This document shows positions 9,521-27,506 of a DNA stretch of 44,998 nt, in pieces. The position numbers and the translations under genes are program-made. Below the pieces are notes generated by a model. That model worked only from the letters and a program-made list of their open reading frames with translations, did not search any database and was not told where the DNA came from. The DNA lies in NCBI GenBank assembly GCA_012840395.1, contig DULL01000028.1, forward strand, positions 1 through 44,998. Reading direction: 5' to 3'. This DNA is from Clostridiaceae bacterium (lineage in GTDB: Bacteria > Bacillota > Clostridia > Acetivibrionales > DULL01). The stretch's first letter is position 1, and the number at the start of each line of letters is the position of its first letter.

Positions 9521-10174
9521 TTATATTTTCTTATTATTATTCTGTAATTTATATATTATCTTAAAGCCCTGTTCTTCAATGGATTTCTCAATTTCCTGAG
9601 TATTTAAGGAATTAATTCCTACTACAATCGCGCTCTTGCCGCTGGCTCCCCTATAAACTGCTACATTGGTAATATTGGCACCGAACTTTCCGATAATACT
9701 GGTTAGGTTGGACATAATACCCGGTTCATCAACCGCTTCAATTGTCAGCCTGGTACCTGGTTCACGAAAACCAAGTAGTTCAATAAATGAATCAAAAATG
9801 TCACTTTCTGTAATAATACCTACCAGTTTATCATTTTCAACCACCGGTAAAAAGCCAACGCCATTATCCCTCATCAAAATGGCTGCTTCTTCCAATAGGG
9901 CATTTGGTGATATTGTGATAGGATTCTTTGTCATTATCATGCTTATTTTTGTTTTTGATAACAAATAGGTAATCTCACCCATGCTGAATGAAGTAGCCTG
10001 TGAAGGTGAGGCCTTTAAAATATCCTCCTTTGATACTACACCAACGAGTTTCCCCTTCTTCATTACGGGCAGACGTTTAACCCCATGTTCTTTCATGATT
10101 TCATGGGCATCAAGTATAGTCTGATCAGGAGAGATGGTGAATGGATTTGTAGTCATCTTATACTTTACAAACAT
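9521..10174 (-). CDS. AcuB-like CBS-CBS-ACT protein
   Basis: 217 residues: CBS domain 1 (about 5-60, LPVMKKGKLVGVVSKEDIL), CBS domain 2 (about 78-135, FLPVVENDKLVGIITESDIF) and a C-terminal ACT domain (about 142-205, LTIEAVDEPGIMSNLTSIIG). CBS pairs bind adenine nucleotides and ACT domains bind amino acids, so the protein is probably a sensor. It lies 4 bases after livF with its own GGGGGTTAGGA ribosome site, as the last gene of the branched-chain amino acid operon. The same layout is seen in other Clostridia. An AcuB role in acetoin metabolism is not implied by this context; sensing of imported amino acids or of energy state is inference. Confidence 0.82.
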   Translation of the reverse strand: MFVKYKMTTNPFTISPDQTILDAHEIMKEHGVKRLPVMKKGKLVGVVSKEDILKASPSQATSFSMGEITYLLSKTKISMIMTKNPITISPNALLEEAAILMRDNGVGFLPVVENDKLVGIITESDIFDSFIELLGFREPGTRLTIEAVDEPGIMSNLTSIIGKFGANITNVAVYRGASGKSAIVVGINSLNTQEIEKSIEEQGFKIIYKLQNNNKKI

Positions 10175-10178
10175 AATC

Positions 10179-10883
10179 CTAACCCCCTAAATATGCTTTT
10201 TTGATTTCTTCACTTTTAATAAGGTCTTCTCCTTTTCCGGAAAGCACTATTGAACCGGTTTCCAGAACATACGCACGATGAGCAATTTGCAATGCCATAC
10301 TTGCATTTTGTTCAACCAATAGAATTGTAGTTCCTGCCTGGTTTATATCTTTTATTATATTAAAAATTTCATGAACCAGCAATGGTGCCAGTCCCATAGA
10401 TGGCTCATCCAGAAAAAGAATTTTAGGGCGGCTCATAAGGGCTCTTCCTATAGCAAGCATCTGCTGTTCTCCACCGGACAATGTCCCTGCTGCCTGTTTT
10501 TTTCTCTCAGCAAGAATAGGGAACCATTCATAAACCTTCTTCAAGTCCCTGGCTATACCTTCTTTGTCACGTCTGAGATATGCTCCTAATTCAAGATTTT
10601 CAAGTACTGTCATTGAAGAAAAAACACGCCGTCCTTCCGGAGCATGGGATATACCCATCTTTACTCTTTCCTGTGCAGATGTATTAGTAATATCAGCACC
10701 ATCCAGCAAAATTTCTCCGCTTGTAGGTTTTTTAAGCCCTGATATGGTGCGGAGAGTTGTTGTTTTGCCAGCGCCGTTTGCACCGATTAAGGTAACAATT
10801 TCTCCGTCATTTACCGTAAGAGAAATACCTTTGAGGGCGTGAATAACTCCAAAATGCACATTAATATTTCTTATCTCAAGCAT
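10179..10883 (-). CDS. livF: Branched-chain amino acid ABC transporter ATPase LivF
   Basis: 234 residues, the expected length. Walker A GANGAGKTT (34-42), signature LSGGEQQ and Walker B ILFLDEP followed by SMGLAP, which is typical of LivF. It pairs with LivG to power import through LivHM. The ATG at 10883 sits behind GGAGG and overlaps the end of livG by 8 bases, indicating translational coupling. Confidence 0.93.
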   Translation of the reverse strand: MLEIRNINVHFGVIHALKGISLTVNDGEIVTLIGANGAGKTTTLRTISGLKKPTSGEILLDGADITNTSAQERVKMGISHAPEGRRVFSSMTVLENLELGAYLRRDKEGIARDLKKVYEWFPILAERKKQAAGTLSGGEQQMLAIGRALMSRPKILFLDEPSMGLAPLLVHEIFNIIKDINQAGTTILLVEQNASMALQIAHRAYVLETGSIVLSGKGEDLIKSEEIKKAYLGG

Positions 10884-11664
10884 TGTTAATTTCCTCCCCC
10901 AAATAAGCTTCTATTACACGTTTATTTGTTTTTATCTCCTCTGGAGTCCCGCTGGCAATCAGCATGCCATAATCCAGAACATATATCCTTTCGCAAATTT
11001 TCATAACAAGCGACATATCATGCTCTATAAGAAGTATTGTCAGTTTAAATTCACTTCGGATCCATTCAATAAGTTCTGTCAAGCTGGCGGTTTCCGCCGG
11101 ATTCATTCCTGCTGCCGGTTCATCCAACAACAGAATGCTGGGATTAGTTGCAAGAGCACGGGCTATTTCAAGCTGCCGTTGCTCACCATAAGGAAGGTTC
11201 TTAGCATACTCATCCTTTTTATCCTGAAGTTTTAATATTCTAAGAAGTTCCATACATTTCTCGAACAGTTCCTTTTCTTCCTTATTATAGGAAGATGTGT
11301 GTATTATACTTGGCATAAAACCGTATTTAACATTCTTATGCATAGCAATTCGTACGTTATCAAGAACCGTCAAATCCCTAAACAGGCGTATATTCTGAAA
11401 AGTCCTGGCAATTCCGGCTTTACAAATTGTATATGGTTTTAATCCTTGTATCTCCCTCTCATTTCCATTTATATTGAGAGTAATAGTGCCGGAAGTTGGA
11501 GCATAAATTCCGGTCAAAAGGTTAAATACAGTTGTCTTCCCAGCTCCGTTCGGACCGATTAACCCAACCAGTTCTCCATGCTGCAATTCAAAACTTACAT
11601 TAGAAACAGCAGTTAAGCCTCCAAAGGATTTAGTTAATTTTTTTACACTTAAAATACTATTCAT
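10876..11664 (-). CDS. livG: Branched-chain amino acid ABC transporter ATPase LivG
   Basis: 262 residues. Walker A GPNGAGKTT (about 37-45), the LivG-type insert after the Q-loop (ARTFQNIRLF), the signature variant YGEQRQLEIARAL, and Walker B ILLLDEPAAGMNP. The C-terminus AYLGEE is usual for LivG. It starts 3 bases after the livM stop, with AGGAT close to the ATG. It forms the nucleotide-binding pair with LivF. Confidence 0.93.
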   Translation of the reverse strand: MNSILSVKKLTKSFGGLTAVSNVSFELQHGELVGLIGPNGAGKTTVFNLLTGIYAPTSGTITLNINGNEREIQGLKPYTICKAGIARTFQNIRLFRDLTVLDNVRIAMHKNVKYGFMPSIIHTSSYNKEEKELFEKCMELLRILKLQDKKDEYAKNLPYGEQRQLEIARALATNPSILLLDEPAAGMNPAETASLTELIEWIRSEFKLTILLIEHDMSLVMKICERIYVLDYGMLIASGTPEEIKTNKRVIEAYLGEEINNA

Positions 11665-11667
11665 ATC

Positions 11668-12636
11668 CTAAGCCCTCCGTTCCTTTGTCCCAAAATATTT
11701 ACCCAATTTACTGAACATAGCAGCGGAAATCTCCTTAGATCCCATTAAGCCTTGAGGGCGGAAAATCATAATTATAATTAAAAGTACAGAATACAAAATC
11801 ATACGTATTTCAGGAAATGACTGCAGGTAAGTTGAAATAATGGCAAGAACTATTGACGCCAATATGGAACCTGATATGCTTCCCAAACCTCCAAACACAA
11901 CTATAACCAATACATCGATAGATTTAAGGAATCCAAATAAATCAGGTTTCAGGAAGTAAAAATATGAAGCGTAAAGCGCTCCAGCAATTCCTGCGCAAAA
12001 AGCTCCAAATGTAAAAGCTAATACTTTATATTTTGTTGAGTTAATTCCCATTGCTTCTGCTGCAATCTCATCCTCACGAATAGAGATACAAGCTCTGCCA
12101 TGAGAAGATTTCAGGAAATTAGAGATAGCAAGAATTGTTCCTGCAGTAAAAACAAACAGCCATGGCCAGTTCACCATTCGAGGAACACCATTTAATCCTG
12201 CAGCCCCATTGGTTATTTTCAGATTAAGAAATACTATACGTATTATTTCTGACATACCTATAGTCGCTATAGCCAGATAATCTCCTCTTAAACGCAATGT
12301 GGGCAAACCTACTACGCAACCTAAAATAGCTGCTGCAACTGCGCCTGCAAACAAACCTATAATAAATCCGGTAATAGTTGGCATCCTCAAGGTAATAATA
12401 GCACAAGTATATGCTCCAACGGACATGAAACCTGCATGTCCCAGTGAAAACTGACCGGTAAAACCGGTAATCAGGTTAAGGCTGACAGATAGGATGATAT
12501 TTATACAAATCATAGTAAGAGTATTTTGTAAATAAGCATTAATTATATTAGTTGAAATCAGAATTTGGACAATAACGAAAGTTAGTGCAAGGGAAAGCAG
12601 CCTTTTTACTCCTTGTTTTTCTAAAATCTTTTTCAC
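11668..12636 (-). CDS. livM: Branched-chain amino acid ABC transporter permease LivM
   Basis: 322 residues starting with GTG behind AAGGTG. It is strongly hydrophobic, with 8-10 membrane segments. The family motif LNLITGFTGQFSLGHAGFMS (about 54-73) and the cytoplasmic EAA-like loop AISIREDEIAAEAMGI (ISIREDEIAAEAMGINSTKY) are clear. It pairs with LivH to make the channel. It begins 3 bases after livH, as expected for one transcript. Confidence 0.93.
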   Translation of the reverse strand: MKKILEKQGVKRLLSLALTFVIVQILISTNIINAYLQNTLTMICINIILSVSLNLITGFTGQFSLGHAGFMSVGAYTCAIITLRMPTITGFIIGLFAGAVAAAILGCVVGLPTLRLRGDYLAIATIGMSEIIRIVFLNLKITNGAAGLNGVPRMVNWPWLFVFTAGTILAISNFLKSSHGRACISIREDEIAAEAMGINSTKYKVLAFTFGAFCAGIAGALYASYFYFLKPDLFGFLKSIDVLVIVVFGGLGSISGSILASIVLAIISTYLQSFPEIRMILYSVLLIIIMIFRPQGLMGSKEISAAMFSKLGKYFGTKERRA

Positions 12637-12639
12637 TCT

Positions 12640-13524
12640 TTACACCTTCTCTCTAGTATTTTTGCCAAGTAAACCAGTGGGTTTAACAATTAGTACAAGA
12701 ATAAGAATTGCAAATACTACTGCATCTCTGATCATAGATTGTCCATAACCCGAAACAAACACTTCTACCGCACCAATAAAGAATCCGCCGATCATAGCTC
12801 CGGGAATTATTCCTATACCTCCAAAAACTGCTGCAATAAATGCCTTTAGTCCTGGGAGAATACCCATCAATGGATTAATTGAATTGTAATATACACCCAC
12901 CAGCACACCTGCAGCACCAGCCAGAGCTGATCCCAGTGCAAAAGTAAATGAAATGGTGGTATCAACATTAATACCCATTAATTCTGCCGCATCCCTATCC
13001 AGTGAAACGGCACGCATTGCTTTCCCTAACCTCGTTTTTTTAACGATAAACTGCAGAAGTCCCATAAGAATGAGAGTTACTACCACTATGAGAATTTGCT
13101 GCATTGTAATGATAATATCTCCAAACTTAAAGGTTTTAGTCAATATACCTGTCATTGGCGGGTAGGAACGTACTTGCGCTTTAACGAAAAACATAGTTCC
13201 GTACTCCAAAAACATTGAAACTCCTATTGCTGTAATAAGTGCTGCTATCCTTGTTGCATTTCTTAAAGGCTTATAGGCTATCTTTTCAATTGCTACACCC
13301 AGCAATGTACATATAACCATGGCAATCAGCAGAGATGGTAAAAATCCGAGATGAAAATAAGTCATGCAAAAATAACCAATATATGCCCCTATCATATATA
13401 TGTCACAATGGGCAAAATTTATAAGCTTTATTATTCCATATACCATGGTATATCCTAAAGCAATAAGAGCATAGATACTGCCTAAAGATATGCCATTAAT
13501 GATTTGTTGTAACAGCTGTTCCAA
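12640..13524 (-). CDS. livH: Branched-chain amino acid ABC transporter permease LivH
   Basis: 294 residues, an all-membrane protein. The N-terminal motif ISLGSIYALIALGYTMVYGI and NFAHCDIYMIGAY are family hallmarks; the usual FAHGD Gly is Cys here. The EAA-like loop is MRAVSLDRDAAELMGI. The start is a TTG at 13524 behind AGGGGGAGG, an unusual start codon that may limit its expression. A gap of 570 bases separates it from livK, so the two parts of the operon may be made in different amounts. Confidence 0.92.
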   Translation of the reverse strand: MEQLLQQIINGISLGSIYALIALGYTMVYGIIKLINFAHCDIYMIGAYIGYFCMTYFHLGFLPSLLIAMVICTLLGVAIEKIAYKPLRNATRIAALITAIGVSMFLEYGTMFFVKAQVRSYPPMTGILTKTFKFGDIIITMQQILIVVVTLILMGLLQFIVKKTRLGKAMRAVSLDRDAAELMGINVDTTISFTFALGSALAGAAGVLVGVYYNSINPLMGILPGLKAFIAAVFGGIGIIPGAMIGGFFIGAVEVFVSGYGQSMIRDAVVFAILILVLIVKPTGLLGKNTREKV

Positions 13525-13809
13525 GTGCCTCCCCCTCTTTCAATCGCCAGTTTAATTTTGATAATATATAAAGCAATAAATAACCAGATAATATTAATAA
13601 GACAATATTATACAATAGCTATTATTATTAAATAAGTAGCTGCTTATGTCAACTTACATTTATCTATTCTACATAATTTCTATATAATAATCTATATTTA
13701 ATACCGATAACTCTTACTAAATATATTATATATTATACATTAAACTTGTCTCATTAGTTTGATGATTTTTCTGTAAATTTTTAGTAAGTACAAAATTTAA
13801 ACATACGAC

Positions 13810-13931
13810 AAGCAAACTCGCTTCGCCCGGGGATTCAGTGAAGGTCTTACAACCCCCCCACTGAACAAGGTTGCTATTATTATTAGCATCAATTAAGCTC
13901 CCGCTTATAGAAGCGAGAGACTTCTTGATAC
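13810..13931 (-). repeat. Two-block hairpin repeat element, copy A
   Basis: Block 1 (13891-13931) has a 9-bp stem, CTCCCGCTT (13898-13906) with AAGCGAGAG (13911-13919), loop ATAG. Read on the minus strand it matches 39 of 41 positions with 34678-34718. Block 2 (13810-13832), read on the minus strand, matches 20 of 23 positions with 17601-17623. The 58 bases between contain TTCAGTG..CACTGAA. The element fills much of the livK-livH gap. The hairpin-then-AATT layout recalls the right end of IS200/IS605 elements; no transposase is present. Confidence 0.55.
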
Positions 13932-13957
13932 CTGCTTGATTTCTGCATAAATATATA

Positions 13958-13989
13958 ATAAGTAGGGACTAAAAACCGCCCCTACTTAT
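13958..13989 (-). terminator. Strong hairpin in the livK-livH gap
   Basis: A perfect 10-bp stem (ATAAGTAGGG / CCCTACTTAT) with a 12-base loop is followed on the minus strand by TATATATTTATG. It lies about 105 bases after the livK stop. It may partly terminate transcription or protect the livK message, giving more binding protein than permease. The T run is imperfect. Confidence 0.4.
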
Positions 13990-14094
13990 AATGCCGGCAT
14001 TCCAGCATATCCATTCTCCATGTTTACTTTATTAGAGGTTAAAAATTTATAACACAACTGTAGGAAAATTATCTTAATTAACAGTTAAACTAAA

Positions 14095-15252
14095 TTAATC
14101 TCCTGCTCTTATAGTTGAAACCTGAACACCGTCTTTTAATTCAATAACAACTAATTTCTTAACAGCATTGTGCTTTTCATCTATGCTGAAGGAACCTGTA
14201 ACACCTGAGAAATTAGTAGTTGCTTCAAAAGCTTTCTTTAATGCTTCACCGGTTAATGCCTCAGCACGGCGGATACCATCAGCAACAAACATTGCTGCAT
14301 CATAACCCAGAGCGTTGAAAGCATCAGGCTCTTTATTATATTTAGCTTTAAAATCTTGAATAAACTTTTCTACAGCAGGATCCTTGTCAAGTGAAGAATA
14401 GTGGTTGGAGAAATAAACATTATTTAATGCCTGTGCTCCGGCAAGCTCAAGCAATACGGGTGAATCAAAGCCGTCAGCACCAAGTATGGGAACGTTAATA
14501 CCCTGTTGACGCGCCTGTTTGATTATCAATCCGGCTTCATTATAGTATCCGGGAATGAAAATAACATCAAAATCCTGGCCTTTAATCTTTGTAAGAATTG
14601 CATTGAAGTCAGTATCCTTGGCAACATATGCTTCCTTTGCTACAATTGTACCACCGCCGGCTTCAAAAGTTTCCTGGAAATTTTCAGCCAAACCTTTACC
14701 GTAGTCACTGGAACTGTCCATGATAATAACTGCTTTTTTGGCAGAAAGGTTATTAAGAGCAAAATTAGCCATTGCAGTTCCCTGGTAGGAATCACTGAAG
14801 CAGATACGGAATGCGTATTCCTTAAGTCCTGAAGCATCATAAGTAACATCGTCAGCTGTTGCGGATCCTGATACTACAGGGATTTTATATTGATTTGCCA
14901 CCGGTATGGTAGCCTTAAAAGCACCTGTTGTTGCAGGCCCGATACAAGCAATAACTTTGTCCTGGGTCATTAATTTTGTGGCAAGAGTTGTTGCTTCAGC
15001 AGGTTCTGATTTGTTGTCGTACTCAACAAGTTCAATTTTTTTGCCATTAATGCCACCCTGGGCATTAATTTGTTCAACTGCCAGTTTAATGCCTTCTACA
15101 GAGCCCTGGCCATAAGTCGCATTATCACCTGAAAGCTCATAGTTAACGCCTATCTTAATTACATTCGCATCAGATCCTTTACTCTGTGAGCAACCGGCGA
15201 AAATTGCGACAGTTAAAAAAACCATCAGTGCAATACTTATAATTTTCTTCAT
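14095..15252 (-). CDS. livK: Branched-chain amino acid binding lipoprotein LivK
   Basis: 385 residues from the ATG at 15252; AAGGAG lies 8 bases upstream, while the in-frame GTG at 15261 overlaps it. A signal peptide ends in the lipobox FAGC, so the protein is lipid-anchored outside the cell. The mature part is a type I periplasmic-binding fold of the Leu/Ile/Val class: IKIGVNYELSGDNATYGQGS, ELVEYDNKSEPAEA, then VIACIGPATTGAF and IPVVSGSATADDV. It is the first gene after the T-box leader and delivers substrate to LivHMGF. Confidence 0.92.
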   Translation of the reverse strand: MKKIISIALMVFLTVAIFAGCSQSKGSDANVIKIGVNYELSGDNATYGQGSVEGIKLAVEQINAQGGINGKKIELVEYDNKSEPAEATTLATKLMTQDKVIACIGPATTGAFKATIPVANQYKIPVVSGSATADDVTYDASGLKEYAFRICFSDSYQGTAMANFALNNLSAKKAVIIMDSSSDYGKGLAENFQETFEAGGGTIVAKEAYVAKDTDFNAILTKIKGQDFDVIFIPGYYNEAGLIIKQARQQGINVPILGADGFDSPVLLELAGAQALNNVYFSNHYSSLDKDPAVEKFIQDFKAKYNKEPDAFNALGYDAAMFVADGIRRAEALTGEALKKAFEATTNFSGVTGSFSIDEKHNAVKKLVVIELKDGVQVSTIRAGD

Positions 15253-15443
15253 TTCGACCACTCCTTAAATAATTATTTAATATAGTATATATATGGTATT
15301 CCAGAAATGCTGGAATTTTTTATACCTTAAACCTTTAAAGAGTTACTAAAATATAGTTTAAACATAATTACATATTTAAATGTAATTTAAATGTATTTAA
15401 ATAGAGTTTTAAATATATTCACAAATTTATATACGTATAAAAT

Positions 15444-15957: not shown

Positions 15958-17265
15958 CTACCGGGTTATAAAGTAATCTTTCTTATCTCTCTGTGAACAT
16001 CTCATTATATACAAAAGCAAAGCCAATATTACTGTAGACAGAATTACATAAATAAGGAGAATTCCTTGATAGCTTCCTGTCAAGTCATAACTAAAATTTA
16101 CTGTTGGATTACCTAGTGATATACCTATTGTAGACATTGCCAGGAAATTTCCTATAACAGCGCGATAGGTCCTTGATCCAAAAAGTTCAAGTACCATAAG
16201 TGGTATTGTAACGGTTTCCATGGACACTGAAAAGCCAAAAATTACAGCATACAGTATTGCCATTACTTTATTCTGAACCAGGGCCAAAATCAAAATACCG
16301 CAAATATGACTGCAGAAACAGACTATAAGTGTAATTTTTAATCCAAAACGGTCAAAAATAATTCCCAGGACAACCTTTGCAATTGCAAGTGAAAAGAAAA
16401 ACACACTGGTTGCAAAAGCGGCAAATTTAGGATCCAGACCTCTGTCTATCATGTGAGAAGGAGCTAATGCATAAACCGGGCTATTTAAAAATCCTGTGAA
16501 AAACACGCAAATAGCTGTTAGATAAAAATATGGCTTTCTTAAAGACTCATCCAGGGTAAAACCTTCCCAGCCGGTTCTTTTCATGTTATCAGGTTGTTCT
16601 TTCCCGCTGCCAAAAGGTAAAAGTCCCATATCTGCAGGATAATTGCGGATGGCTAAAATAAGAGGTATTGAGCAGATCATGTAGCACACCGAAGTAAAAA
16701 AATAAGACTGCCGCCAGCCAAAATTCTGAATCCAGTCTGCAACAATCATGCTGAAGAGGCTTCCTCCAAGCCCACTACCCGCCAATATAACACCCATAAT
16801 AGTACCTTTACGTTCTACAAACCAGCGCTCCACAATAATGGACACAACCGCTGTAGTACAAAAAGCAGAGCCAGCTCCATAAAGAGCTCCACATATGTAA
16901 AATACTGCCAGGCTCTGTGCTCTTGAGAAAATAAAAAAAGCAGTAGTAAGTAGCCCATAACCTATTCCAACCATTTTTCTCACTTCAAGTTTACGTACAA
17001 AAAAACCAATTAGAAAATTAAAAGCTGCGGTAAATAGAAACCGGAAAGTAAAAACAACTGAAAATGCACCTCTACTAAAACCCATTTCTTTTGTTACTGG
17101 CGTAATATAAAGGCCACTGGGAGAATTTCCTAATCCCAGGCCTACAAACACCATAATAAAGCAAGCTCCGGCAACAATCCATCCATAAAAGAATCTTTGC
17201 CTATTAACAGCAATTTTTTCATTTAGATTTGTGTTTTCTAAGTTAGTATTTTGTGAAACCTTCAT
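15958..17265 (-). CDS. MFS transporter, OFA/monocarboxylate type
   Basis: 435 residues from the ATG at 17265, which has AAGGA 10 bases upstream; a longer frame to 17346 has no ribosome site. Twelve membrane segments are expected. FFYGWIVAGACFIMVFVGLG opens the first segment, as in oxalate/formate antiporter and monocarboxylate carriers, and GSGLGGSLFSMIVADWIQNF followed by GWRQSYF is the family's motif in the fifth segment. The substrate is probably a small organic acid, but nothing nearby fixes it. It is a separate unit between the T-box promoter and the nag-type operon terminator. Confidence 0.85.
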   Translation of the reverse strand: MKVSQNTNLENTNLNEKIAVNRQRFFYGWIVAGACFIMVFVGLGLGNSPSGLYITPVTKEMGFSRGAFSVVFTFRFLFTAAFNFLIGFFVRKLEVRKMVGIGYGLLTTAFFIFSRAQSLAVFYICGALYGAGSAFCTTAVVSIIVERWFVERKGTIMGVILAGSGLGGSLFSMIVADWIQNFGWRQSYFFTSVCYMICSIPLILAIRNYPADMGLLPFGSGKEQPDNMKRTGWEGFTLDESLRKPYFYLTAICVFFTGFLNSPVYALAPSHMIDRGLDPKFAAFATSVFFFSLAIAKVVLGIIFDRFGLKITLIVCFCSHICGILILALVQNKVMAILYAVIFGFSVSMETVTIPLMVLELFGSRTYRAVIGNFLAMSTIGISLGNPTVNFSYDLTGSYQGILLIYVILSTVILALLLYIMRCSQRDKKDYFITR

Positions 17266-17461
17266 ATCATTAATTCCTTCCAAAATATTTATGTTGATAG
17301 AAGCAGTATTAAGTATTATTAATTTGATTCTTTGTACAAGATACATGATTTTTTAAGCCATGTAATTACTAAATAACATAAGTTTCGTTATTTAATACAT
17401 TAATTCATTATATCATGAAATTTTAAACTTGAAAAAATTTATAAAAAAATGATTATAAAAT

Positions 17462-17526: not shown

Positions 17527-17623
17527 GAAATCTTCCTCTTCCAGAAGGAGGCTGAATTAAGGCAAATCACGTTTGCACCGGTATGATTCCGGGCTCTAAA
17601 CCCCTGGCAAAGCGGGTTTGCTT
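17527..17623 (+). repeat. Two-block hairpin repeat element, copy B
   Basis: Block 1 (17527-17562) is a diverged form of the hairpin: CTTCCTCTTCCAGAAGGAGG followed by CTGAATTAA, as at 34678-34721. Block 2 (17601-17623) agrees with copy A at 20 of 23 positions and ends inside the stop codon of the NagB-like gene. The 38 bases between differ from copy A. The orientation is opposite to copy A relative to the strand. The remainder of 17266-17461 is AT-rich and shows no gene. Confidence 0.45.
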
Positions 17624-18581
17624 AATATGCTACTGTTTCCCAGAAGTCAAAAGGAGCTGCAAGTTCCTGACTTACATAAACCTGTGTATCAAGAAGCTGT
17701 AGTATTGAACTTGGCACAAGAGGAGTAACAGGTCCATGCAGAATCAATCTTGATACCATTCTCTGCCAGGATGTAAATGTACCATTTGTGAGCAGTGCAT
17801 GAAGTTCGATTCTTTCCCTGGATCTGACAACATCTGCCGGTCCTATTGTTGCTGCCTTGGGAGGTACTGCAGTAATATACCCTGACTGTCCGAAAATACC
17901 ATGCAAGGAATTTTGAGCAATTGTCAATGGATGCAGAGTTACAATTTTTGCATCCTGTTTAAGGTATTCATTTATATCCTCCGTCAAGAACTCGTCAACA
18001 GGATCAACAAAGGCAATATGCCCGGCCCATCCGGGACTTGAATAGCAGACATCCGCTCCTCCCTCACCAACTTCTGTTATGAGTTTGGAATAGTCTTTAA
18101 AGTTTTCGTTTGTAGGATAATAAACATTTTCTAAAGGCATGCGGAGTTCCGGATCAATTTTGTATACAAAATATTTGAGCATTGAACGGGCAAAACCTGC
18201 GCGATATGTTATGGGAGCAATATTGCCATCTTCATCTGCCCACTCGTCCATAGCAAATATATATACATTTCTGCAATTGATCCTATGATAATTTATCAGC
18301 TCAGCAACAGGCCAGTATGTCTCAGGCTCAGGATTCCCAAGAATCAGAGTAATCTTTTTATCTTTTTCGTCTGATTCTTTAATTCTGGTGAAAATGTCTC
18401 CAATAATTATTGGATGCGGATTTAGCACAACCTTAATTTTGAAATTTGGATTAGGATGTTTCTCAAGGTCCGTCCCACTGATTTTTCTTAATCTTTCACA
18501 GACTTCCTTGTCTTTAAAAGGAACAAAATCTGCCGGTGTAAATTTAAAATCAGTAGCTGGGTCAAGAATAATCTCTTTCAT
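17622..18581 (-). CDS. NagB-like sugar-phosphate isomerase/deaminase, altered active site
   Basis: 319 residues from the ATG at 18581 (GGGGGT 7 bases upstream; the ATG at 18596 has none). The protein has the glucosamine-6-phosphate deaminase/6-phosphogluconolactonase fold but is about 60 residues longer than usual NagB. The catalytic Asp of the MDE motif is kept (Asp112), as is the ring-opening His (His188 in AGHIAF). The family's DGH Asp is Ala186 and the NEP Glu is Asp193, so the D-H-E triad of NagB is not intact. Last gene of the operon, after the NagA-like gene. Expected to act on the product of that deacetylase; the true substrate and reaction are uncertain. Confidence 0.72.
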   Translation of the reverse strand: MKEIILDPATDFKFTPADFVPFKDKEVCERLRKISGTDLEKHPNPNFKIKVVLNPHPIIIGDIFTRIKESDEKDKKITLILGNPEPETYWPVAELINYHRINCRNVYIFAMDEWADEDGNIAPITYRAGFARSMLKYFVYKIDPELRMPLENVYYPTNENFKDYSKLITEVGEGGADVCYSSPGWAGHIAFVDPVDEFLTEDINEYLKQDAKIVTLHPLTIAQNSLHGIFGQSGYITAVPPKAATIGPADVVRSRERIELHALLTNGTFTSWQRMVSRLILHGPVTPLVPSSILQLLDTQVYVSQELAAPFDFWETVAY

Positions 18582-18654
18582 TTCTTCTACCCCCATTTCA
18601 ATAGTTTTATTATAGTTTAATGGTCTTTTAATGGTTCTAAATCAGGATGATAAA

Positions 18655-19806
18655 CTAAATAATAATCTCCCCTGATAAAATAACTTTCTTTACGTTCATA
18701 AGATGGTCCACAATAATCAGGTCAGCCTTATTCCCTGCTGCTATCTCCCCATATCCGGACATATTTAGTAATTTTGCGGGATTATATGATGCAAACCTGA
18801 AAACATCGCAAAGGCTTGATCCTGTATGCTTGAACATATTGCGGCAGGCAATATTCAGTGTTAATTTTGAACCTGCAATTTCACCTGCAAAATCAAAATT
18901 AATATCATCAACATCTTCATATCCTTCAGGAACAGGCCCCTCTGAAACAAAGGCGTCAGAAATAAGTATTATTCTGTCCTTTCCTTTTATTTTCAGGACA
19001 AGCCTCAGCATATATGGGTCAACATGGATACCTCTGCTGTCACAAATTAATTCTGCATAAATATCATCATTGAAATTTACAGTTTCATCTACGCAAACGC
19101 CTCTGCATTCCGGATATTTGGGAAGATCACCGGTAGCATTTGTATGATGAGTGGCCAGCTTCAAACCGAATGGTATGAACCGCTCAATTTGTAAGGGAGA
19201 TGCTTCACTGTGGGCTACTGAAAAAACTATTCCGGGAATGGCTTTTTTTACATCTGCGACAAACTCTTCTATTCCCTCAAGTTCGGGTGCTATACACCAT
19301 ACCTTTGCGAAGTCTCCCACCTCTTCTATCAGTAATTCATATTCCTCACGCTTAATACCCTGTGTCCATTTGTTGTTTTCTGCCTCGCATCCAAATTTGG
19401 GATTTAAATAGGGGCCTTCCATATATAATCCTTTTATTATCCTTCCGCTGCCTGTTTTTGAAGCATTCTTCATCATGGATATTCCATCAAGGAACTGCTC
19501 TCTGCTTAAATTATAATATAGCGCGGGGAGTATACTGGTAGTTCCATGTCTCAAATGATGTTCAGCAGCTCTTTGAGGATCTTCAGTGAAAAAAGCATTG
19601 CCACCTGCGTGGGTATGAATATCTATCAACCCGGGGCCGGTATAATTGCCATTAGCATCTATTATTTGGGCATTTCCGGGGATATCAGTCTTATTCATCT
19701 CACCAAGGTTTACTATTCTATCCCCTTCAGTAATTATTACTCCATTTAAGATTAAATGGTCTTTTAAGACAATATGCGTATTAGTTATAGCAATTATTGA
19801 AATCAC
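18655..19806 (-). CDS. NagA-like N-acetylglucosamine-6-phosphate deacetylase family
   Basis: 383 residues, amidohydrolase fold. Metal and catalytic residues: DIHTH (His64, His66), MEGPYLNP (Glu130), VAHSEA (His199), THHTNA (His220; NagA usually has THLFNA) and the general-base Asp284 in ISDAF. It should remove the acetyl group from an N-acetyl amino-sugar phosphate in the cytoplasm. The region after THHTNA lacks the usual HREPG of NagA. The only possible start is a GTG at 19806 directly touching AGGGGG, an unusual spacing that makes the exact start uncertain. It sits between the binding protein and the NagB-like gene. Confidence 0.8.
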   Translation of the reverse strand: MISIIAITNTHIVLKDHLILNGVIITEGDRIVNLGEMNKTDIPGNAQIIDANGNYTGPGLIDIHTHAGGNAFFTEDPQRAAEHHLRHGTTSILPALYYNLSREQFLDGISMMKNASKTGSGRIIKGLYMEGPYLNPKFGCEAENNKWTQGIKREEYELLIEEVGDFAKVWCIAPELEGIEEFVADVKKAIPGIVFSVAHSEASPLQIERFIPFGLKLATHHTNATGDLPKYPECRGVCVDETVNFNDDIYAELICDSRGIHVDPYMLRLVLKIKGKDRIILISDAFVSEGPVPEGYEDVDDINFDFAGEIAGSKLTLNIACRNMFKHTGSSLCDVFRFASYNPAKLLNMSGYGEIAAGNKADLIIVDHLMNVKKVILSGEIII

Positions 19807-19850: not shown

Positions 19851-20837
19851 TCAGGGTTCAAGACTTTTATAATTGTTCTTGTCTGCTATTTCGAAATTAC
19901 AGTCAACTCTTTTGGGAATTTCAGAGGCTTTTCCTTCAAAATATTTGACGGCGATATCCATTAGAGACTTAACCAACTCAGCTGGCGGGATGACAACTAC
20001 TGCCTCATAATATGGATTTTGATCTTTCAGAAGGTTATATGTTTTCTCGCCATAACCACCACAGGAAAATACCTTGATATCCTTACTTGCTCCCATAGCC
20101 TCCAGAGCGGCAACTGCGCCGAAAGCTCCCGGATCGGTAACAGTAAATACTATATCAAAAGGCTCTTTAATATTTGTTATCATGTTGCTTGCCTTTTCTT
20201 CATTATTTTCCGGATCCTGTTCTGCTATTATTTTTATATTGCTACCCATATCACCAAGGCCTTCTTTAAATCCTTCTGCACGGGACATGCACAGAGGAGA
20301 CTGGGCAAGATTGAAAATAACTATATTTGCTTTTCCACCTTTTTTCTCGTCAATGTATTTACGTACATATTTACCCATTTCCACACCGGTTTTATAGTTA
20401 TCCCATGCAACGAAGCTTACGAGGTCATCCCAAACGGGAGGTTCATCAAAACCTACTATTGGAATATTCTTTCCTGCAATACTGTCCAGAGTAGTTCCGA
20501 TTCCTTCCGGGTCAACTGCGCAGAACATTATCATGTCACATTGCTGGGTTACGAAGTTTTCCAACTGTGCTTGCTGTGTTTCAGGGCTTGCGTTGGCATC
20601 CTGTATTATCATTTCTGCGCCTAATGCAGCACCCTGTTCTTTAAATTCCTTATCCATATTCACATACCATTCGTCACCTTTATAATACAGGCTGACTCCG
20701 ATCTTTTTCCCGGAAAGAGGTTTATCACTGGTGGAAGTTTTTGCGGTGCCCGAACTACTCTCAGTACAAGCTGTAAACAAAGATGTGAGAATCATTAAGC
20801 ATAATACAAGAGATAATACTTTTATTATCTTTCTCAC
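19851..20837 (-). CDS. Sugar ABC transporter binding lipoprotein (CUT2, RbsB-like)
   Basis: 328 residues, with a signal peptide and lipobox FTAC. The mature part is a periplasmic-binding fold of the ribose/galactose type (KKIGVSLYYKGDEWYVNMDK, MIMFCAVDPEGI, IPIVGFDEPP). The start is GTG behind GGGAGGAATAATT. It is placed after its ATPase gene and before the NagA-like enzyme, so the bound sugar is probably an amino sugar or derivative. That assignment is from context. CUT2 carriers do not phosphorylate their substrate, so a sugar kinase must act elsewhere. Confidence 0.88.
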   Translation of the reverse strand: MRKIIKVLSLVLCLMILTSLFTACTESSSGTAKTSTSDKPLSGKKIGVSLYYKGDEWYVNMDKEFKEQGAALGAEMIIQDANASPETQQAQLENFVTQQCDMIMFCAVDPEGIGTTLDSIAGKNIPIVGFDEPPVWDDLVSFVAWDNYKTGVEMGKYVRKYIDEKKGGKANIVIFNLAQSPLCMSRAEGFKEGLGDMGSNIKIIAEQDPENNEEKASNMITNIKEPFDIVFTVTDPGAFGAVAALEAMGASKDIKVFSCGGYGEKTYNLLKDQNPYYEAVVVIPPAELVKSLMDIAVKYFEGKASEIPKRVDCNFEIADKNNYKSLEP

Positions 20838-20879: not shown

Positions 20880-22358
20880 TTACACACACAAATTAATAAT
20901 GGACTCCTGGGTTGCCTCTTCACGGGTAAGCATACCTGCAATTCTCCCCTCATGCATTACCAGTATTCTGTCGCACATTCCCAATATCTCTGGAAGCTCG
21001 GAAGATATCATAATAACCGTTTTCCCTTCTGAAGCCATCTTGCTGATTAATTTGTAGATTTCTGCCTTAGCACCTACGTCAATACCCCGGGTTGGCTCAT
21101 CAAGAAAAATAATCTGACTGTTTTCCATTAGCCATTTTGCGATTACGACTTTTTGTTGATTCCCTCCTGAAAGATTTTCCACTGCAGTATCAATGGAAGG
21201 AGTATGAATCTTTAATCTGTCAACATATTGTTCTGCATAATGATTTTCAAGTTTTTTGTTCAGAACACCTCCTTTTAGTATTTTTTTAATGCTAACTAAA
21301 GTTACGTTTTCTTTTACCGCAAAAGGTAGAATTAATCCCTGAGCCTTTCTATCCTCGGGAACAAGCCCAAGGGAGTTTTTAATGGCATACTTAAATTTTT
21401 TAAACCTTACAGGGTTTCCATTAATAGTAATTTCACCGGAGCTAATCTTGTCGATTCCAAGTATCGCCCTGGCAAGCTCTGTTCTTCCTGAACCCACTAA
21501 ACCAGCTATTCCTAATATTTCTCCTTTTCGAACTTCAAAGTTTATATTTTTAAGACCTTTTTGGTTGTTGAGGTTTTTGACTTTCAAAACAACTTCTCCG
21601 ATTTTAACCTCTTCTTTTGGATATTCCTTTTCCAGAGTTCTTCCCACCATCATAGAGATAAGCTTATTTCTGTCAACTTCTGAAACAGGAACTGTACCAA
21701 TATGCCTTCCATCCCGTAAAACTGTCAGATTGTCAGCAATTCTAAAGACTTCTTCAAGCCTGTGGGAAATATAAATTATTGAAATGCCTTGCTTTTTCAG
21801 TTTATTAATTATTTGATATAAAATATCAATTTCTTTATCAGTTAAGGTTGCAGAGGGTTCATCCATAATTATTAATCTACATTGATGATTTATTGCTTTA
21901 CAAATTTCAACTATTTGTTTTTTTGCAACTGTAAGGTTGGCAACAATATCATCCGGTTCAATGTTTACTCCTAATTCACCAATCATGTTAGCGGCTTTTT
22001 CTCTCATGGTTTTCCAGTCTACAAGCTTTTTCTTATATATATAATTCCCAAGAAAAATATTCTCCGTAACCGTTAATGTTTCCGCAAGCTTGAACTCCTG
22101 GTGTACAACACTAATCCCAGCCTTCAGGGACTCATAAGGGGTTCTGAAGTGCATTTTTGTGCCATCAAATATGAATTCACCTGAATCAGGCTGATATATA
22201 CCTGCCAATATTTTTATTAGAGTTGACTTACCGGCACCATTTTCGCCCAGGAGCGCATGAACAGTTCCTCTTTCCATATCAAAAGAAACATCATCCAGGG
22301 CTTTTACACCGGGGAAACTTTTTGATATGTTTCTTATGGATAAAATAATATCTTTCAT
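20880..22358 (-). CDS. Sugar ABC transporter ATPase, double-domain (RbsA/MglA-like)
   Basis: 492 residues with two ATPase halves, the mark of CUT2 importers. First half: Walker A GENGAGKST, Walker B IIMDEPSATLT and a degenerate signature (LTVAKKQIVEICKA). Second half: the degenerate Walker A GLVGSGRTELARAILG and an intact signature LSGGNQQKV, with IIFLDEPTRGIDVG. This division of intact and degenerate sites is normal for the family. AAGGGGG precedes the ATG. It lies 12 bases after the permease gene. Confidence 0.92.
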   Translation of the reverse strand: MKDIILSIRNISKSFPGVKALDDVSFDMERGTVHALLGENGAGKSTLIKILAGIYQPDSGEFIFDGTKMHFRTPYESLKAGISVVHQEFKLAETLTVTENIFLGNYIYKKKLVDWKTMREKAANMIGELGVNIEPDDIVANLTVAKKQIVEICKAINHQCRLIIMDEPSATLTDKEIDILYQIINKLKKQGISIIYISHRLEEVFRIADNLTVLRDGRHIGTVPVSEVDRNKLISMMVGRTLEKEYPKEEVKIGEVVLKVKNLNNQKGLKNINFEVRKGEILGIAGLVGSGRTELARAILGIDKISSGEITINGNPVRFKKFKYAIKNSLGLVPEDRKAQGLILPFAVKENVTLVSIKKILKGGVLNKKLENHYAEQYVDRLKIHTPSIDTAVENLSGGNQQKVVIAKWLMENSQIIFLDEPTRGIDVGAKAEIYKLISKMASEGKTVIMISSELPEILGMCDRILVMHEGRIAGMLTREEATQESIINLCV

Positions 22359-22370
22359 GGTTGTTCCCCC

Positions 22371-23363
22371 TTATATGCCATAACTTTTTCTATTTCTGAG
22401 AACATCAATTGCAATAGCTACGATCAAAACAATACCTTTTAAAACATCCTGGTAAAAAGGATCAACATTTAACATAGTCATTCCATTGAAAAACATTATG
22501 AGGAAAATGGAACCAAATAACGCCCCAATAACCTTCCCCTTACCGCCTGCAAGGCTCAAACCGCCTATAACTGAAGCTATTATGGCATCAAATTCATACA
22601 GATTTCCATTTGTTATAAATGCTGAATCAAGTCTTGACATCAGGATTATTCCACCTACTGAAGCCATAAAACCTGCTATGATAAAGGTTATGGTTTTATA
22701 AAATTTAACATCAATACCTGCAAAGTAGGCTGCTTCTTTATTTCCTCCTATAGAATATACATAACGTCCGAATTTGGTTTTTGTAGAAATAAATGTAAAT
22801 ATTATATATACAAATATCATGATAATTACGCTATAGGGTATAAAGCCCAAACTTCCGCGGCCAATAAAATGTATTGATTTAGGAAGTTTTGCAATAGGAG
22901 CCGCATTTGTTATAACCTTTGCAAGTCCTTTTGCTACATTCTGTACCCCCAGGGTAGCTATAAATGCAGGTATTCTGATATAAGCAACCATTACACCGTT
23001 GCAGAGGCCAATGAGAGCACCCAGCAAAAGCGCAGTAGTTATTGCGACAAAGGGAGGTATATTCATAAATTTCATCATGTACGCTGCGATACAGCTGGTT
23101 ATACATGCATTCTGACCTATTGAAAGGTCAAATTCGCCTGTAAGTATTACCATAGCCTGGCCTACCGCCACAACTGCAATAGTAGACGCCTGAAGCAAAA
23201 TATTTTTTAAATTCTCTCCTGTGAAAAAGTATTTTGATGATACTGTAAATAATAGACCTAGTGCAACTATAGCAATAATTACTGCATAATCCTTGGAGAA
23301 ATCAGAAAAGAATTTACCAGGCTGCAAAAAATATCTCTTTTCGACTTTGGGGCTTCCGTTCAT
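22371..23363 (-). CDS. Sugar ABC transporter permease (CUT2, RbsC-like)
   Basis: 330 residues from the ATG at 23363; AAGGAG directly abuts an earlier in-frame ATG (23372), so the second, at 9 bases, is the better start. About ten membrane segments. Family motifs: QASTIAVVAVGQAMVILTGE, FDLSIGQNACI, and VIGGLSLAGGKGKVIGALFG near the end. It is first in the transport operon, preceded by a copy of the palindrome also found in the ROK gene promoter. Confidence 0.9.
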   Translation of the reverse strand: MNGSPKVEKRYFLQPGKFFSDFSKDYAVIIAIVALGLLFTVSSKYFFTGENLKNILLQASTIAVVAVGQAMVILTGEFDLSIGQNACITSCIAAYMMKFMNIPPFVAITTALLLGALIGLCNGVMVAYIRIPAFIATLGVQNVAKGLAKVITNAAPIAKLPKSIHFIGRGSLGFIPYSVIIMIFVYIIFTFISTKTKFGRYVYSIGGNKEAAYFAGIDVKFYKTITFIIAGFMASVGGIILMSRLDSAFITNGNLYEFDAIIASVIGGLSLAGGKGKVIGALFGSIFLIMFFNGMTMLNVDPFYQDVLKGIVLIVAIAIDVLRNRKSYGI

Positions 23364-23465
23364 AATAAACATCTCCTTTTAAAGAATGGAAAAAAGTATT
23401 TATTTTGAAAAATTGAATTCCAAACTCGCTCAATAATCGACATTTTCCACTTATTATTGTATATA

Positions 23466-23480
23466 ATAGATTACTTCTAT
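23466..23480. promoter_or_regulatory. Probable ROK operator upstream of the transport operon
   Basis: The perfect inverted repeat ATAGA-TTACT-TCTAT lies about 100 bases before the permease start. Fourteen of the 15 bases recur in the ROK promoter at 24840-24854. On the minus strand TATATA follows it, in the position of a -10 element; the -35 is weak. Repression by the ROK protein encoded just upstream is inferred. Confidence 0.65.
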
Positions 23481-23520
23481 TAATATGCTATAAAACTTGT
23501 TTTAAACAGTTCCAATAGTT

Positions 23521-24747
23521 CTATTCGTAATGTTTCTTCAGGCACAATGTTGCTGCTCCTATTGCTGAAGCAGTGCTTCCTAGTTTTGATGTTGTAATTA
23601 TGGAATCTTTATATAATTCAGGTATGGTTTGAAGTTTTACATTTTCAATAATTGATTCTAGTAATATATTGTTATCCTTGATTAATCTTCCTCCAATTAT
23701 TACTTTTGAGGGATTGATAAGACTTATTGAGTTTGCTATACCAATAGCAATACACTTTCCCGCGTTTACCAGCAGGTCATAGCATTCTTTATCACCTAAT
23801 TCTGCTGCTAAAACAATATCCTTGGTTGACGGGGTTTCATAGGCATTCTTTGTTACCTCTGCCAGCAGCCCGTTAGGATATTTTTCGGCTAGCATTTTGG
23901 CCTGTTTTGAAAGAGCCCATCCAGAAGCTAAAGATTCTATACATCCCCTCCTGCCGCAAGTACATTCAGGCCCATCCACTTTAACAATTGTGTGGCCTAC
24001 TTCTCCTGATTTTCCTTTAGAGCCCGCATAAATCTGTCCGTTTATTACCATTCCGCAGCCAATACCGAGGCCGAGATCAAAAACAATAAAATTGTCACTA
24101 TACCTCCCTTCCCCATGCCATAACTCGGCAAGAGTCATAAGTCTGGAACAGTCATCCATCAGGATTTCTTTTTTGTATTTTTCCTTTAAAGCAGTTCTAA
24201 ACATAACACTGTTCCAATTGGGTACATTTTCTGATAGTATGGCTTCTCCTGTTTCCACATCTATATGGCCTTGAAAGGCAACACCAATTTCTGAAATATC
24301 ATCTATTGATAATTCAGCTTTCTTTAACAACTGGCTAATAATTAAATCACAGAGTTGAATAAGGATATCAGTTTCAACGTTATTGTGTATATCTATGCTA
24401 TGTGAAGCAAGTATGTTTCCGGTAAAATCAATTATTACTCCTGTAATGTGAGTTCCTCCAAGATCAATTCCTATACATCTGCTGAATTCTCCGTTTAATG
24501 AAAGTATTTCTTTTGGTCTTCCTAAACCCGTACTTTCAGTTGCTAATACTCTTACCTGATTGTTGGCAAACATGTCATTTACAATATTGGTAACTGTCTT
24601 TTTATCCAGGTTTGATACTTCAGCAAGCTCCACTCGGGACATCGGTCCTCTTTCCCTGAGTATATTGAGTAACTTTTTGGTATTAAAATCCCTGAGAAAA
24701 CTCTGATCACTTTTTGAATATTTAGATTTTGCATCTTTTATATGCAT
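23521..24747 (-). CDS. ROK family transcriptional repressor (NagC/XylR type)
   Basis: 408 residues. A winged helix-turn-helix (about 33-60, MSRVELAEVSNLDKKTVTNI) precedes a ROK sugar-binding domain with GIDLGGTH (93-100), GEVGH (248-252) and the zinc site His252/Cys262/Cys264/Cys269 (CTCGRRGC). The usual catalytic Asp region reads MDDCS. Such proteins repress sugar operons until their sugar or sugar phosphate binds. AAGGAT precedes the ATG at 24747. The shared palindrome in its own promoter and in front of the permease points to self-control and control of the operon. Confidence 0.9.
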   Translation of the reverse strand: MHIKDAKSKYSKSDQSFLRDFNTKKLLNILRERGPMSRVELAEVSNLDKKTVTNIVNDMFANNQVRVLATESTGLGRPKEILSLNGEFSRCIGIDLGGTHITGVIIDFTGNILASHSIDIHNNVETDILIQLCDLIISQLLKKAELSIDDISEIGVAFQGHIDVETGEAILSENVPNWNSVMFRTALKEKYKKEILMDDCSRLMTLAELWHGEGRYSDNFIVFDLGLGIGCGMVINGQIYAGSKGKSGEVGHTIVKVDGPECTCGRRGCIESLASGWALSKQAKMLAEKYPNGLLAEVTKNAYETPSTKDIVLAAELGDKECYDLLVNAGKCIAIGIANSISLINPSKVIIGGRLIKDNNILLESIIENVKLQTIPELYKDSIITTSKLGSTASAIGAATLCLKKHYE

Positions 24748-24833: not shown

Positions 24834-24862
24834 ATTATATTAGATTACTTCTATAAAGTCAA
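24834..24862 (-). promoter_or_regulatory. ROK gene promoter with embedded operator
   Basis: -35 TTGACT (24857-24862), a 17-base spacer and -10 TATAAT (24834-24839) on the minus strand. The spacer contains ATAGAAGTAATCTA, the same sequence as the perfect palindrome at 23466-23480. A repressor bound here would block RNA polymerase directly, which is the classic arrangement. Confidence 0.82.
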
Positions 24863-26408: not shown

Positions 26409-27506
26409 TTAATATTTATCAATAAATTCCCTTACCAGCTTAATTCTGTGTTCCAGTCCGTCAGGAGGTACTTGATCAGCCACTCCCATAACAAATCTTG
26501 TATCATCTTTAAAAACATCAATAACATTTTGCAGATGGCTTATAAAGGCGTCCTCAGAGTAACTGGGAGAGAATAGTGCTCCTGGCAGGCCGCCCCATAT
26601 TACTATATTATCTCCTGCTGTTTTTCTTAAGTCTTCAAGTTTTATGTCACCTACAGGGTATGGTGTAACGGCTTCAGCTACATCAAATCCGCAGGGTTCC
26701 AGCAAAGGCAAACAGGCACCGAGAGTTCCGTCTATATGTATGCCTATATATTTACCTGCTTTATGCAGTTGCTCAATTCTCTTTTTGTAATAAGGCATAT
26801 TGTATTTCTCAAATAAAGTCTTACCTGTTATTTCACTGGAAAGATTTTCTGCAAACTCCACATAAACAGCAGGAGAGGCGCATAATATATCAAAAACCTC
26901 GTCTTCTGAATCCTGAATCATACAAATTATTTCTTCAAATTCTTCAGTTTCATCCAAGTACAATTCTATTGTTTTTTCAACTCCTGCCCATCTTGCCAGA
27001 AGCTTTTGTAAAGGAGCTACAGATATAGGTGCAATAGCAGTTGCTATTCCATGTTCACCCCAAAGTTCGTCTATTCTGCTAAACTCCTTATAGTTTTCAG
27101 AATATCTTGTATTCTTAAAAATGTAGAGCATTACTCTTAAGTCATTGATATCCTTGACAAAATGTTCCTGATAAGCCCAGGAGTAAGTTGCCGGTGAGTA
27201 CTTCTGAACCGATCTTATATTCCCTACAGGAGTATTATATTCACATATGTGAAGGTCTTCAGTTTTTTTCTCGCTGTAAGATATACTCTTATCAAGATGT
27301 GTGTTCCATACAAAAGGAGGATAAAAACAAATACCTGCTCCTAAATCTTTATAAAAATTCAGGTATCCGGTCTCACCTTTATACTTATCCTGCAGGATTC
27401 CCCTGATTGTCATGCTATCATATAAATAGGATAAATCCGCGTACCAGGGCATCCTGTCCGGTTTTTGTCCTTTTAGTACACTTAATAGTCTTTCTCTCTC
27501 AGTCAC
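26409..27506 (-). CDS. Uroporphyrinogen decarboxylase-like protein (UROD superfamily)
   Basis: 365 residues starting with GTG behind GGAGG. The opening TERERLLSVLKGQKPDRMPW and the C-terminal GIHIDGTLGACLPLLEPCGF, then IVIWGGLPG are typical of the UROD/corrinoid methyltransferase (MtaA, MtbA) superfamily, with a TIM-barrel fold. No other haem genes are near, so haem biosynthesis is unlikely. The closest relatives by appearance are the uncharacterised clostridial group predicted to act in methyl transfer or demethylation. A corrinoid protein gene is not adjacent. It is followed by the exported protein in the same transcription unit. Confidence 0.75.
   Translation of the reverse strand: MTERERLLSVLKGQKPDRMPWYADLSYLYDSMTIRGILQDKYKGETGYLNFYKDLGAGICFYPPFVWNTHLDKSISYSEKKTEDLHICEYNTPVGNIRSVQKYSPATYSWAYQEHFVKDINDLRVMLYIFKNTRYSENYKEFSRIDELWGEHGIATAIAPISVAPLQKLLARWAGVEKTIELYLDETEEFEEIICMIQDSEDEVFDILCASPAVYVEFAENLSSEITGKTLFEKYNMPYYKKRIEQLHKAGKYIGIHIDGTLGACLPLLEPCGFDVAEAVTPYPVGDIKLEDLRKTAGDNIVIWGGLPGALFSPSYSEDAFISHLQNVIDVFKDDTRFVMGVADQVPPDGLEHRIKLVREFIDKY

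Follow-up and report, generated by a model that had tools for sequence, protein, structure and literature searches.

A NagB-fold protein family with a predicted loss of the NagB phosphate site and its possible role in a pathway for unphosphorylated amino sugars

Gene content and regulation of the locus

The window, which is the whole 44,998-nucleotide stretch of DNA analyzed here (contig DULL01000028.1 of a Clostridiaceae bacterium), carries on its minus strand, in the order in which that strand is read, a ROK regulator gene (23521 to 24747), the genes for the permease (RbsC/AraH type, 333 amino acids [aa]; 22371 to 23372), two-domain ATPase (RbsA/XylG type; 20880 to 22358), and sugar-binding lipoprotein (19851 to 20837) of a CUT2 importer, a gene for a 383-aa NagA-like amidohydrolase that we call F1 (18655 to 19806), and a gene for a long, 324-aa NagB-like protein that we call F0 (17622 to 18596). 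After a gap of 275 bp comes an MFS transporter gene (15958 to 17346, minus strand) whose membership in the pathway is uncertain; a homologous MFS gene also adjoins an F0 tandem pair on contig C34 of the same genome. Membership is likewise uncertain for a URO-D/corrinoid-methyltransferase-like gene at 26409 to 27506 (minus strand). Elsewhere in the window (9521 to 15261) is a full set of branched-chain amino acid-type ABC transporter genes followed by a gene for a CBS-domain protein, which were named from reading the sequence.

The first-pass annotation of this DNA had described a NagA/NagB-like pair at 17622 to 19806 that is fed by a CUT2 importer and has no kinase. Both genes lie at these coordinates on the minus strand, and the importer is complete, with a Peripla_BP_4 lipoprotein, a 492-aa sugar-type ATPase, and an Rbs/Ara-type permease. 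No sugar kinase was found among the window proteins scanned, a subset drawn from the longer open reading frames (ORFs).

An HTH stands at the N terminus of the ROK protein, which keeps the DLGGT ATP motif but has Cys at the column of the NagK catalytic Asp (in the NDAN motif); the HTH and the Cys set it apart from ROK kinases. We considered whether it might be a hidden kinase and rejected this because of the Cys at the catalytic position. Because of this Cys and the HTH, we read it as a local repressor, with a probable role in sensing rather than phosphorylation. The same 18-bp putative operator is present upstream of the transporter operon (AATAGAAGTAATCTATTA, 23464 to 23481, no strand assigned) and upstream of the ROK gene (TATAGAAGTAATCTAATA, 24838 to 24855, no strand assigned). 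These are the only two perfect copies in the genome. Weak matches number 22/24, compared with 43/30 for the controls, which are higher, and the neighbors of the two next-best sites examined (on contigs C8 and C56) are ribosomal-protein genes and a gene unrelated to sugars. The idea that a kinase encoded elsewhere is controlled by the same palindrome is therefore not borne out.

This bears on the textbook order of events, in which a kinase encoded elsewhere would 6-phosphorylate an unusual N-acetylhexosamine (HexNAc) and F1 and F0 would then act on it through an altered phosphate site. The genome does encode a ROK kinase that could do so, on contig C54, together with other ordinary HexNAc genes (NanE and a NagA that scores 309.2, above the cut-off). 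However, the operator is common to no kinase, and for this and further reasons given below, we consider the textbook order unlikely.

Fold and predicted active site of F0

A Pfam search with F0 (E up to 1) matched no family, and its score against the NagB equivalog model TIGR00502 is 34.3 bits, which is below the cut-off of 236.9. PF01182 matches only one gene in this genome, which is on contig C62 and is not F0; the protein that it encodes scores below the equivalog cut-offs itself. A profile built from 45 F0 relatives matches NagB-annotated PDB chains (best E, 1.1e-17), and no chains with other annotations are matched significantly. The best structural match of an AlphaFold2 model of F0 (pLDDT 94.7, pTM 0.90) is also NagB (2bkv, Z 27.9, rmsd 2.1 over 230 residues; 1dea, Z 26.8). 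Based on the profile matches and the fold, we place F0 on a distant branch of the NagB fold.

The second structural neighbor of the F0 model is 6-phosphogluconolactonase (6PGL), with a Z of about 22, and the Asp and the His that F0 retains are common to NagB and 6PGL. F0 might thus be a lactonase, or another hydrolase or isomerase of the same superfold, instead of a deaminase, in which case F1 would cut another bond. We find this quite improbable, since the significant profile matches are confined to NagB, the GHIAFxDP motif of F0 is of the NagB type, and F0 is recurrently linked to amide hydrolases (see below).

The length of 324 aa is counted from the first ATG, while the first-pass annotation began at an ATG five codons later. 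E. coli NagB, at 266 aa, is shorter than F0 by 58 aa, in good agreement with the earlier estimate of about 60. (The E. coli NagB and NagA reference sequences that we used are identical to PDB chains.) With the five-codon shift, the residues described as retained, Asp112 and His188, are Asp117 and His193 and match E. coli Asp72 and His143, while the residues described as altered, Ala186 and Asp193, are Ala191 and Asp198 and stand at the positions of E. coli Asp141 and Glu148. The residues had thus been read correctly, but an altered ring-opening triad does not hold up as the key difference from NagB. In an alignment of 95 nonredundant F0 proteins with 18 ordinary NagBs, 17 of the 18 NagBs carry Asn at the Asp141 position, so the Ala of F0 is no mark of new chemistry, and Asp in place of Glu148 is a conservative change. 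Within the F0 family, most proteins have Pro, Ala, Thr, or Ser at the Asp141 position; at the Glu148 position, 79 of the 95 have Asp and 16 have Glu; and the equivalents of Asp72 and His143 are kept in 94/95 and 91/95, respectively.

The phosphate site is a different matter. The ordinary NagBs all have a loop of the TG[GSNA][TS] type (with the T sometimes replaced by A) and Lys208, and 15 of the 18 have Arg172; we take Arg172 and Lys208 of E. coli NagB to be phosphate ligands. In the F0 family, the position of Arg172 is Leu in 88/95 proteins and that of Lys208 is Gln in 89/95, and the loop is N-P-x-P or similar where ordinary NagB has TG[GS]T (for the role of this loop in NagB, see PMC4281351). 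The window F0, with its N-P-x-P loop, Leu231, and Gln278, has none of the three elements of the NagB phosphate site (TG[GS]T loop, Arg172, and Lys208). As judged from the alignment, the predicted loss of the NagB phosphate grip is the family-wide distinguishing mark of F0. The prolines in the loop, where NagB offers backbone NH groups, argue against the textbook order, in which F0 would have to hold a 6-phosphate. In favor of that order, Arg279 and Arg283, near the Lys208 position, are conserved in F0 and might provide an alternative site for an anion.

There are seven F0 genes in this genome, and the other six encode proteins 47 to 60% identical to the window F0; an eighth, the second of the tandem pair on C34, is outside this count. 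Three of the seven (on C21, C46, and C50) have no deacylase or kinase gene adjacent, which counts against the pathway proposed below. In one F0 of the tandem pair (L116:8796-9761), Arg replaces the catalytic His (SGRIATIEP); this protein is a possible pseudoenzyme partner of the other, which keeps the His. At E up to 1e-40, 62 of the 390 other genomes of the class that were searched contain F0; of 18 genomes from the same order, none does. Hosts of F0 loci include Clostridia, Bacteroidales, Planctomycetes, Actinomycetota, Spirochaetes, and others. A search of a plasmid collection yielded distant relatives only. One of these, on a Vibrio nigripulchritudo plasmid (L127:9869-10765), has genes for a nucleoside hydrolase, an adenosine deaminase, a ribokinase, and NupC around it, and since this is a nucleoside-salvage cluster, the fold may serve other chemistry.

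Deacylase and kinase partners of F0

F0 loci were chosen by similarity to the window F0, and operons (n = 88) were defined as same-strand genes separated by gaps under 250 bp, with our own ORF calls, which makes the counts approximate. Deacylase-type partners in these operons are NagA-like in 34, ceramidase-like in 27, and M20 in 7, and genes for PIG-L (3) and creatininase (2) are also present. The occurrence of several unrelated amide hydrolases beside the same enzyme suggests that N-deacylation is the step partnered with F0.

The ceramidase-like partner is a ceramidase N-terminal (PF04734) protein of 430 to 450 aa that travels with F0 (e.g., L113:12214-13518, and 27 of the 88 operons). A PF04734 gene is also found on a Devosia plasmid (L129:8001-9272) with NagB-like, SIS, and amidohydrolase genes. 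This partner led us to consider the inositol ring-cleavage pathway, which we rejected: no such hydrolase is described for it in the literature that we found, and PF04734 is in none of 14 control genomes, that of T. maritima included. Aldolases of the fuculose, FBP, and KDPG types were tried as markers of the sugar, and blastp detected almost none near F0.

Several other gene associations were observed. At L004, L010, L011, and L023, the F0 set is followed by three genes, for an SIS isomerase, a triose-phosphate-isomerase-like protein, and a YjbQ/UPF0047 protein, and DegT/DnrJ-type aminotransferase genes adjoin F0-like genes at L082, L084, and L014. This genome has three URO-D/corrinoid-methyltransferase-like genes in the vicinity of NagA-like or F0 genes (window 26409-27506, L116:3059-4135, and L160:2034-3137, the last two named solely by reading the sequence), and there is an MttB-like methyltransferase gene (L117:10095-11501) beside the lone PF01182 NagB gene. 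One thought is that methylated amino sugars might be demethylated by the linked methyltransferase-like enzymes.

F1 scores 174.4 bits against the NagA model TIGR00221, below the cut-off of 225.65, and, as the first-pass annotation reported, it has THHTNA and lacks HREPG, in place of which it has CRGVCVDE. In a tree, one branch (SH-aLRT 100) takes in 29 of the 34 F0-linked NagA-like proteins and none of the nine NagAs taken as ordinary; the NagA encoded on C54 of this genome groups with the latter. An NagA-like gene on contig C44 (L162:5787-6098) is apparently broken in two pieces. All 29 members of the main F0-linked clade, the window F1 included, retain every metal ligand and the catalytic Asp. 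In contrast with these, the H-R-x-P-G phosphate pincer is not intact in F1, which has lost His226 and Pro229 and keeps Arg227. Across the clade, Lys140 is deleted in all 29 proteins, His226 is deleted in 27, and Pro229 is changed in 27, while new acidic residues appear by the pincer (Asp232 in 28/29 and Glu233 in 24/29). We had entertained a complete loss of the NagA phosphate ligands in F1, and this was dropped, because the alignment shows that Arg227 and Asn219 are retained. Arg227 is Arg in 19/29 of the clade, among them the window F1, and position 219 is divided between Asn (14, including the window F1) and Asp (15). The phosphate site of F1 is, as far as the alignment can tell, remodeled, and because Arg227 stays in 19/29 and position 219 is split, the case from F1 is weaker than that from F0.

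Both Arg227 and Asn219 are phosphate contacts in NagA (for the roles of the pincer residues, see PMC6016474), and their presence in the window F1 is in keeping with the textbook order; the conserved acidic pair next to the pincer counts against it. Arg227 could also bind the carboxylate of a uronate. If the substrate were a 2-acetamido-2-deoxy-uronic acid, with the carboxylate in place of the phosphate, the product would be fructuronate or tagaturonate. NagA accepts a 6-sulfate instead of the phosphate (PMC6016474), and KdgK/KDPG-aldolase-like genes are near one F0 tandem pair. Nevertheless, the acidic Asp232 and Glu233 disfavor an anion, and the main kinase linked to F0 is one that a uronate route does not need, so we regard a uronate substrate as quite improbable.

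This linked kinase belongs to the FGGY family, whose members act on ketoses and polyols and not on N-acetylhexosamines; we know of no FGGY kinase that acts on a HexNAc, which is a further point against the textbook order. An FGGY kinase gene is present in 25 of the 88 F0 operons. In the FGGY tree, 18 of 24 F0-operon kinases fall in one clade (SH-aLRT 99) that includes none of 18 background FGGYs. The remaining six (from L002, L028, L032, L048, L056, and L070), some of them on long branches, fall outside this clade and, from their positions in the tree, look like separate recruitments. At the locus of the closest relative (L002), whose F0 is 79% identical to that of the window, the order is F1-F0-FGGY, and the kinase gene starts 2 bp past the F0 stop. 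FGGY genes also adjoin F0 on C34 and C52 of this genome. The window copy of F0 has no FGGY gene beside it, and therefore its kinase, if an FGGY, would have to act in trans.

Proposed pathway and comparison with known systems

The gene arrangement, fold, residue losses, clades, and co-occurrence described above were computed; from here we infer the order of steps, the phosphate-free substrate, and the reactions. An N-acylated amino sugar would be brought in by the CUT2 importer under ROK control, and F1, as a metal-dependent amidohydrolase, would take off the acyl group. The NagB-fold enzyme F0 would then convert the free amino sugar to a ketose and ammonia. Unlike the enzymes of the textbook Nag route, F1 and F0 would act on a sugar that has no 6-phosphate, and the ketose would be phosphorylated afterwards by an FGGY-family kinase, which many relatives, but not the window copy, encode beside F0. 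We hold the balance to be even on whether deacylation and deamination-isomerization do take place on the unphosphorylated sugar and, where an FGGY kinase is encoded, come before phosphorylation by that kinase. A better account of the missing local kinase is that the predicted phosphate-binding elements of these enzymes are lost or remodeled and that an FGGY step comes later in related operons. As for the sugar, a 6-deoxy-HexNAc (of the FucNAc or QuiNAc type) offers no site for 6-phosphorylation and would be a sensible starting guess, no more than that. The earlier suggestion of a pathway for an unusual N-acyl amino sugar thus stands insofar as it is CUT2-fed and backed by gene context, but not for the reason given, the altered triad, since ordinary NagBs usually have Asn at Asp141.

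A broader proposal is that a hitherto undescribed family of deaminase-isomerases, founded by F0, acts on unphosphorylated amino sugars together with its own clades of NagA-like deacylase and FGGY kinase, that the order is to deacylate, deaminate, and then phosphorylate the ketose, and that the seven copies in one genome serve different sugars. We advance it tentatively and lean slightly against its holding in full. A literature search for an unphosphorylated amino-sugar deaminase or for the F0 gene set returned nothing relevant. F0 proteins have no Pfam family, and similarity would name them glucosamine-6-phosphate deaminases, which implies a phosphorylated pathway and is at odds with the predicted active site. 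If our reading is true, Clostridia of anaerobic digesters, the rumen, and the gut would have a way of processing amino sugars that do not allow 6-phosphorylation, for example amino sugars from bacterial cell surfaces, and a clade of FGGY kinases and a ceramidase-like partner would gain testable functions.

Among known systems, NagB, the glucosamine-6-phosphate deaminase (PF01182, TIGR00502), resembles F0 in fold, in the equivalents of Asp72 and His143, in the acid at the Glu148 position, and in having an NagA-like gene adjacent. In contrast, F0 has no Pfam match and is below the TIGR00502 cut-off, its phosphate loop, Arg172, and Lys208 are replaced, its N terminus is longer by about 50 residues, and it carries a DEWADEDGN insert. 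NagA, the N-acetylglucosamine-6-phosphate deacetylase (TIGR00221), shares with F1 the amidohydrolase domain, all metal ligands, the catalytic Asp273, and His251, but F1 is below the TIGR00221 cut-off, has R-x-x-x-x-D-E for HREPG, and belongs to a clade apart from NagB-linked NagA. 6PGL has the same superfold as F0, but the profile search did not match its sequence significantly, and the loop motifs of F0 are of the NagB type. NagB-II, the SIS-domain deaminase (NF046059) that also stands in for NagB in some GlcNAc pathways, has a fold unrelated to that of F0, which has no SIS domain match.
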